Shown here: in pieces, positions 1 through 358 of the stretch
How positions within the stretch are numbered: the first letter of the stretch is position 1
Layout of the letters: the number at the start of each line of letters is the position of its first letter
Source of the DNA: a bacterium
Lineage (GTDB): Bacteria; CAIWAD01
Assembly (NCBI GenBank): GCA_030685015.1
Contig: JAUXWS010000038.1
Location: forward strand, 1 to 19,386
Direction: 5' to 3'
DNA length: 19,386 bases
Program-made: the position numbers and the translations under genes
The notes under the pieces: generated by a model
What the model was told of the DNA's origin: nothing
Seen by the model: the letters and a program-made list of their open reading frames with translations, nothing else
Databases searched by the model: none

Positions 1-73
1 AGGTCCGATGGGAAGCCGGGAACTCGATATCGATATCGATATCGATATCGACGGTGATTCCGATAGCGATGGG
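1..73. repeat. Partial hexamer inverted-repeat element (spacer plus right arm)
   Basis: The window opens inside an element. Positions 1-23 are the conserved spacer starting AGGTCCGATGGGAA. From 24 a right arm of TCGATA hexamers follows; 24-51 is a perfect 28-nt palindrome of alternating CGATAT units. It degrades into CGATAGCGATGGG by position 73. Two further copies with the same spacer begin at 142 and about 259, so the left arm of this copy should lie just outside the window. The reading frames through it give only simple repeats (DIDIDI, SDSDSD) and are not genes. Confidence 0.8.
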
Positions 74-111
74 TCATTGACGGGCATCCAAACTACCCGG
101 CCACCGCGGCA

Positions 112-201
112 GGATCGGGATCGCTATCGGGATCGGGATCGAGGTCCGATGGGAACCCGAGAATTCGATAGCGATAGCGATAGCGATAGCGATAGCGATG
201 G
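112..201. repeat. Composite hexamer inverted-repeat element, copy 2
   Basis: The left arm (about 112-141) consists of ATCGGG and ATCGCT hexamers. The spacer (142-164) begins AGGTCCGATGGGAA. The right arm (about 165-201) consists of CGATAG hexamers. The right arm is the imperfect reverse complement of the left: ATCG matches in every hexamer and the two intervening bases vary. A single strand could therefore fold into a long imperfect hairpin with a loop of about 23 nt. The same design appears at 1-73, 223-312 and 2733-2820. Confidence 0.8.
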
Positions 202-222
202 ATCGCGCGGGGCGCTTGGTGT

Positions 223-312
223 CATCGCGATCGGGATCGCTATCGGGATCGGGATCGAAGTCCGATGGGAAGCCGAGCACTCGAAAGCGATAGCGATACC
301 GATAGCGATGGG
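223..312. repeat. Composite hexamer inverted-repeat element, copy 3
   Basis: The left arm (about 223-258) is made of ATCGGG/ATCGCT hexamers. The spacer (about 259-280) starts AGTCCGATGGGAAGCCGAG, nearly identical to those at 1 and 142. The right arm (about 281-312) contains CGATAG and CGATAC hexamers and ends in GCGATGGG. The start-to-start spacing of the spacers is 141 and about 117 nt, so the copies sit in loose tandem. No coding potential is evident. Confidence 0.8.
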
Positions 313-358
313 TTGTCGACGAGCTTCACATCTTGCCAGCCACCGCGGCACAGAGTCG

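Follow-up and report, generated by a model that had tools for sequence, protein, structure and literature searches.

Intervening sequences (IVSs) of the 23S rRNA genes of Coxiella burnetii and Leptospira have terminal inverted repeats that form a stem (28 bp in Coxiella) with a gene for S23p, the intervening-sequence protein (IVP), in the loop, and they are regarded as selfish (PMC4990558). On the 5' side of the Coxiella IVS lie heptamer tandem repeats (GACAGAT), the number of which varies between strains (PMC4990558). Other heptamer repeats are GGGNATC in Xanthomonas and Nostoc, with 70-75 convergent inverted pairs in Xanthomonas (PMC4692102), and TAACTGA in Beggiatoaceae (PMC4679880); neither report mentions an IVP gene, and the repeats are interpreted there in terms of G-quadruplexes or regulation. 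The window analysed here is the whole of contig JAUXWS010000038.1 (C38, 19,386 nucleotides) from a bacterial assembly of 3.6 Mb in 105 contigs (GCA_030685015.1, 97% complete). At its left edge, bases 1-313, it carries inverted arrays of degenerate ATCGNN hexamers. We consider it very likely that such arrays are the arms of free-standing, IVS-like selfish hairpin elements and of gene-less derivatives of these elements.

The complete form is present in a genome of the sister genus (G003, locus L370), in which two exactly inverted 34-bp ATCG arms, 590 bp apart, enclose an intact gene of 121 amino acids. The gene product is a 23S rRNA-intervening sequence protein (PF05635, E 1.4e-19; NCBIfam four helix bundle protein; family TIGR02436), and its nearest solved structure is XCC0516 (2gsc), which is an IVP of Xanthomonas. 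Folded as RNA, the complete element has a z of -6.2 with the two arms paired. The congener G001 (L374) holds a decayed IVP gene with stops between decayed arms. When PF05635 was sought in 16 genomes, IVP genes flanked by ATCG arms were found in G003, twice in G060, in G065 and, up to the contig end, in G068. By taxon, the flanked genes include those of Desulfobacteraceae (L380, L389) and Thiorhodococcus (L379), and a further one was found in Planctomycetota (L433). Only the left arm is seen in a gammaproteobacterium (L371), where the contig ends, and in Verrucomicrobia (L185), where the sequence examined ends before the right arm. Taking the ATCG lineage as a whole, complete copies have a PF05635/TIGR02436 gene between inverted arms. 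An IVP protein query reached 16 of 34 ATCG-bearing genomes in all, with matches of 61-80% identity in several phyla.

Searching 2.45 Mb of array loci with four IVPs gave matches at only five distinct loci. Four of the matches are enclosed by a pair of arms and the fifth directly follows a left arm; the space between arms makes up 0.6% of the array-bearing DNA. Three of the five are partial remnants of 45, 26 and 15 residues, which record how deletion leads from complete elements to gene-less pairs. G057 carries four near-identical IVP elements at sites that are unrelated, as judged by their flanks.

The same loci might be read in another way, with the arms as an independent class of hexamer hairpins between genes, maintained through slippage and hairpin-templated repair, and the IVP as a passenger that inserts at the hairpin tip. 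This account is improbable, although it is the most serious competitor. It fits the observations that gene-less pairs far outnumber IVP-bearing pairs, that many array genomes have no IVP, that known IVSs are located in rRNA helices (PMC4990558), and that a PLD-like (phospholipase D-like) nuclease gene in the window's genome is also found between two ATCG arms, 890 bp apart. Yet in a tree of 59 IVPs, the seven ATCG-flanked proteins, from at least five taxa, group together as a single clade (support 89/79; recovered in 90% of bootstrap trees and in 0 of 500 shuffles), and with their nearest relatives, which have TCGTAC/GAGTAC-type arms, they make up a group of 13. The length of the repeat unit tracks the IVP clade: the period is 6 in all eight clear-armed members of this group, and among the other IVPs it is 7 in 32 of 37, 8 in four and 9 in one. 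Moreover, the right arm in the hexamer group is often in the IVP reading frame and is translated as the C-terminus, an acidic tail such as (Asp-X)n, so that the arm is part of the gene. Examples of translated tails are FDPDPDPDPD, VDADADADAD, FDSDPES and EYEYRDAEYEYE. As the arm of G003 is untranslated, arm translation is frequent in the group, not universal. The deletion remnants between the arms likewise speak against a passenger.

In-frame translation of an arm demands a repeat length divisible by 3. Read as GAT-NNC, CGATNN encodes Asp-X, which may account for the restricted set of NN dinucleotides. The earlier, sequence-only reading of the window had suggested selection on the 6-bp helical period or on a methylase site; we found no support for either, and the 6-bp unit is better explained by the right arm continuing the IVP frame as a two-codon (acidic-X) repeat.

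IVP genes without ATCG arms bear other inverted tandem-repeat arms. The comparison was made on genomes not chosen for ATCG, with one IVP gene per genome and with own set against swapped flanks. An IVP was present in 38 of the 116 genomes searched and in none of 14 control genomes. For 22 of 29 IVP genes, the match between the left flank and the reverse complement of the right flank was closer for the gene's own flanks than for over 99% of swapped ones (0.3 genes expected). The repeats flanking these genes are degenerate and mostly heptamers. Among 94 control small genes, the arm score had a maximum of 33 and a median of 19, and only one of 56 shifted windows at the same loci scored above 27. 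Two heptamer families were counted in 30 genomes. The CTGGTTC arm heptamer occurs 28 times in G044, the IVP of which bears it, and a single time among the 29 others; for the GTTACAG arm, the counts are 112 in G079 and 29 in G067, where both IVPs bear it, and zero in the 28 others. Both families are thus essentially confined to genomes whose IVP bears them, which speaks against the passenger account. No rRNA matches were found at the 20 IVP loci tested.

The wider proposal is that IVP/S23 genes with inverted short-tandem-repeat arms constitute one widespread, undescribed class of selfish elements. Each IVP lineage would have its cognate repeat (mostly 7-mers, with one arm-translating 6-mer lineage), and many intergenic hexamer and heptamer arrays, for example in cyanobacteria, Xanthomonas and Beggiatoaceae, would be gene-less relics spread by IVP-assisted copying. 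On this broader claim, we regard the scales as evenly balanced. As a separate observation, IVP gene fragments in G012 occur several times in the genome as divergent pairs a few hundred bases apart (C2:122174-122711 and C7:104028-104554).

In the window's genome, four-hexamer ATCGNN matches number 235 when overlaps are counted, with 54 array starts. A 448-kb sample of this genome, made up of stretches selected around arrays, holds 87 arrays of three hexamers or more, versus 0.0 in five Markov resamplings. Only 76 of 2654 array bases fall inside called genes (calls from a simple caller of our own) in stretches that are 88% coding, so the arrays are intergenic. Adjacent non-palindromic arrays, taken over all genomes, follow the order ATCG-then-CGAT in 80 cases and the opposite order in three. 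The variable NN is drawn from a small set (CT, GG, GT, AT/AA, CA), and the hexamer vocabulary is identical across phyla; as a CT-GG-CT seed served to find the other genomes, their NN counts are biased. These results bear out the sequence-only reading in two respects: the unit is an inverted arm-spacer-arm pair, and ATCG is constant while the other two bases vary. Two further loci of this genome deserve mention. On contig C79 (L080:8974-9973), inverted-order ATCG arms 890 bp apart surround the PLD-like gene in place of an IVP (PF13091, 239 aa, with a zinc-ribbon-like tail). On contig C102 (L008, about 24.4 kb), there is another degenerate intergenic short tandem repeat of the GGTGTCC/GGTGATCAGT type.

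Pure microsatellite slippage with local duplication, and no element at all, is very unlikely. The number of hexamers does shift in units of 6, the array at the window edge is tandemly amplified and the NN of the two arms do not co-vary, as slippage would have it. Slippage leaves unexplained, however, the inverted order of 80 to 3, the hexamer vocabulary shared across phyla and the IVP gene between the arms. A terminator between convergent genes was also rejected, as the flanking genes are mostly in tandem (20 of 26 in the window's genome).

Mobilisation by RAYTs (the Y1 tyrosine transposases associated with repetitive extragenic palindromic, REP, sequences), with the arrays as REP- or BIME-type (bacterial interspersed mosaic element) palindromes, has least in its favour and is most improbable: the window's genome has five Y1_Tnp genes, relatives have them too and the arrays are intergenic inverted pairs, but arrays of three or more hexamers are missing from the retrieved surroundings of all 20 Y1 genes inspected, several of these genes have their own palindromes on both sides, and no GTAG/CGTC tag was seen by eye beside the displayed arms, for which no systematic scan was made. 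RAYT-driven REP was rejected on the ground that none of the 20 inspected Y1 genes is array-flanked. The earlier suggestion of spread in trans by a transposase seems right as to mobile-unit spread and wrong or unsupported as to a RAYT-type enzyme, and its view that the layout is not that of REP, ERIC (enterobacterial repetitive intergenic consensus) or CRISPR (clustered regularly interspaced short palindromic repeats) agrees with our findings. CRISPR was rejected since the spacers are near-identical and the repeats are degenerate hexamers, as opposed to unique spacers between near-identical repeats. In the sister genus, locus L238 of G003 shows the normal RAYT/REP arrangement, in which the palindrome GCTGCAGGCGAAAGCCTGCAGC flanks a Y1/RAYT gene on either side.

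The ATCG elements are distributed patchily. In the window's genus, overlapping matches number 2 in one other species and 0 in another; the count is 63 in the sister genus, and 56 other genomes have hardly any. A search with an exact 22-mer brought up at least 118 stretches with the same layout, spread over about 25 unrelated genomes, including Desulfobacteraceae, Thermoanaerobaculales, Planctomycetota, Kiritimatiellae, Erginobacter, Sumerlaeota and Thiohalocapsa. Most genomes compared are metagenome-assembled genomes (MAGs). In the Thermoanaerobaculales MAG, arms and a spacer of 25-26 nt form a family with mostly unrelated flanks. In the Desulfobacteraceae MAG S24.Bin080 (G060; L252-L281), the ATCG hairpin lies inside a miniature inverted-repeat transposable element (MITE) with terminal inverted repeats (ends GGCATCCTTCAT) and target-site duplications of 8-9 bp. 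This MITE is present in high copy (at least 40 copies), and the lengths of its near-identical copies are spaced by multiples of 6 bp (42 of the 46 lengths fall into one class), which means that hexamers were gained and lost among them. The congener G002 has no ATCG array at any of five syntenic (orthologous) intergenic sites. The insertion borders at these five sites are unreadable, as the intergenic DNA is too diverged, and some sites hold other palindromes. Those at L344, L285 and L340 have other inverted repeats (TGTCATCCCAGCGAAAGCTGGGAT; CACGAAGACTCGAAGACTC).

Several observations weigh against interpreting the arrays as arms of IVS-like elements. The window's own genome (G000), despite its 97% completeness, gave no PF05635 match and no tblastn remnant. 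The copies in the window thus have neither an IVP gene nor a remnant in their genome, and their assignment rests on relatives. A detectable ATCG-type IVP is absent from 18 of 34 array-bearing genomes, so the IVP is unnecessary for keeping arrays. Seven of the 29 IVP genes tested have no clear arms. Between the two arms of one pair, there is no NN covariation, and arms exchanged between pairs match at least as well, which leaves selection for a perfect helix without support. The ATCG pairs of G060 are carried by an ordinary MITE, which means that another vehicle was used in at least one genome. Finally, no target-site duplication or empty site was obtained for the IVP element itself, given the divergence of intergenic DNA in G002.

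With these points taken into account, we still favour the IVS-like element, and its history can be sketched as follows. A complete element consists of an (ATCGNN)n arm, a gene of about 120 amino acids for an IVP/S23 four-helix bundle and a (CGATNN)n arm, placed between protein genes. Its RNA would fold back into a single long stem that has the gene in its loop, and in many elements of the lineage, the right arm doubles as the 3' end of the gene. Deletion of the gene would leave gene-less arm-spacer-arm pairs, which may spread or persist between genes, with hexamers gained or lost by slippage. The IVP probably recognises its own arms. As for the chemistry of transposition, we infer movement by IVP-assisted copying into new intergenic sites, perhaps via RNA and a reverse transcriptase acting in trans. 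The RNA route is proposed by analogy with Avd, a four-helix-bundle protein related to IVP that works with the reverse transcriptase of diversity-generating retroelements. At the level of sequence, the link between IVP and Avd is weak: one heptamer-type IVP gave a sub-threshold match only (NCBIfam DivGenRetAVD, E 8e-5, 22.9 bits against a cut-off of 80), and a neighbouring reverse transcriptase was not searched for. In the window's lineage, gene-less copies may have been mobilised in trans before the IVP was lost, and the arms would have been left behind. The window's genome would then retain only gene-less derivatives, with one pair tandemly amplified at 1-313.

The amplified array consists of three arm-spacer-arm units with ATCGNN hexamers on the left and CGATNN hexamers on the right. 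Direct repeats of 58 nt start at 1, 142 and 258 with identities of 100, 83 and 78%, and each contains TCCGATGGGAA. This confirms the three near-identical spacers reported earlier for this region. The spacer has 24 nt in units 1 and 2 and about 30 nt in unit 3, where the first right-arm hexamer has decayed. The window contains 23 matches to ATCGNNATCGNNATCG, versus none in 200 shuffles. Hence, a chance origin of the hexamer arrays is excluded.

Unit 1 begins with its spacer (AGGTCCGATGGGAAGCCGGGAACT; 1-24, forward strand), the left arm lying past the window edge on contig C10. Its right arm (25-50, no strand assigned) has the fully palindromic ATCGAT form and can be read as an ATCG or a CGAT array; an additional CGATAGCGAT hexamer pair follows (61-70, reverse strand). 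The link between units 1 and 2 (71-113, forward) ends in CCACCGCGGCAGG, which also terminates unit 3 and is present in the copies on C10. Unit 2 has a left arm of the ATCGGG/ATCGCT type with five ATCG (114-141, forward), a spacer (142-165, forward) and a right arm with six CGAT, (CGATAG)n (166-199, reverse). A second link (200-223, forward) includes half of a terminator-like palindrome (GGATCGCGCGGGGCGCTTGGTGTC). Unit 3 comprises a left arm of the same ATCGGG/ATCGCT type with six ATCG (224-257, forward), a spacer including the decayed hexamer (TCGAAAG; 258-287, forward) and a right arm with four CGAT (288-309, reverse). The array is closed by the terminator-like palindrome GCGCCCCGCACGGATCGCGCGGGGCGCTT, read directly at 360-391 (unstranded). 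Beyond it lies a solo palindromic ATCGAT array (400-419, unstranded). A second, single pair has a left arm with six ATCG (2734-2767, forward) and a short palindromic facing arm (CGATATCGATATCG; 2795-2808, unstranded), separated by a 27-nt spacer. In RNA folding against shuffles, unit 2 has a z of -2.0 and unit 3 a z of -4.9 (0 of 200 shuffles); the single pair at 2734-2808 folds no better than its shuffles. No known RNA family and no rRNA were found in the window. A coding origin of the window copy was rejected: a 127-aa frame (8-391) runs across the array, and no IVP remnant was found in the genome of the window.

The array continues beyond the window. The last 105 bases of C10, in reverse complement, are identical to window bases 1-105, and the first kilobase of C10 holds about eight further copies of the unit. 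From these copies and the left arm of unit 1 on C10, it follows that the array was split by the assembly and that the window shows only part of it. C10 and C38 are likely to adjoin in the genome, which is not proven because the unit is repeated. A near copy of the 360-391 palindrome closes the C10 side and half copies occur inside the array, as if the array had grown between two terminators. The exact spacer core is limited to this local cluster, and its sole other exact match, on C102, has no array. The possibility of a mere local microsatellite duplication, which the sequence-only reading had allowed for, is therefore consistent with the spacer core and not with the arms, which are genome-wide; as a whole, it does not hold.

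IVP/S23 four-helix-bundle proteins occur in about one third of the sampled genomes (38 of 116) and have no known function. Intergenic hexamer and heptamer arrays have been reported for decades without an origin, and the IVP link gives many of them a likely one, testable in any genome. We found no report linking IVPs to tandem repeats in the open-access literature beyond the Coxiella IVS paper (PMC4990558), and a literature search with the exact array strings returned no related report. The ATCG arms and the IVP represent a candidate element-protein partnership distinct from REP/RAYT, and the linkage of repeat-unit length (6 or 7) to IVP lineage through arm translation is a specific and unexpected prediction.

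Set against the known systems, the ATCG elements resemble the 23S rRNA IVSs in having an inverted-repeat stem with an S23p/IVP gene in the loop. They differ in lying outside rRNA, in their long degenerate tandem-repeat arms, in their numerous gene-less intergenic derivatives and, in the hexamer lineage, in the translated right arm. A strict 23S rRNA IVS was rejected, as no rRNA accompanies the window or the 20 IVP loci. Short tandemly repeated repetitive (STRR) sequences of cyanobacteria were reportedly described by Mazel in 1990. With these and with the intergenic heptamers of Xanthomonas, Nostoc and Beggiatoaceae, the ATCG arrays share degenerate short tandem repeats, an intergenic location and a patchy occurrence across phyla; the unit is 6 bp here and 7 bp there, which excludes the ATCG arrays from the otherwise similar STRRs. 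The Xanthomonas/Nostoc and Beggiatoaceae heptamer repeats are probably kin of the ATCG elements. As in MITEs, short gene-less derivatives come from a longer element with inverted ends, but neither a target duplication nor a DDE-type transposase is tied to the ATCG arms themselves. The logic of REP/REPIN-RAYT systems is similar as well, with a trans-acting gene and many gene-less palindromic intergenic derivatives, whereas the ATCG-linked protein is no Y1 transposase but a four-helix bundle in which no catalytic residues are known, and the arms are tandem hexamers.
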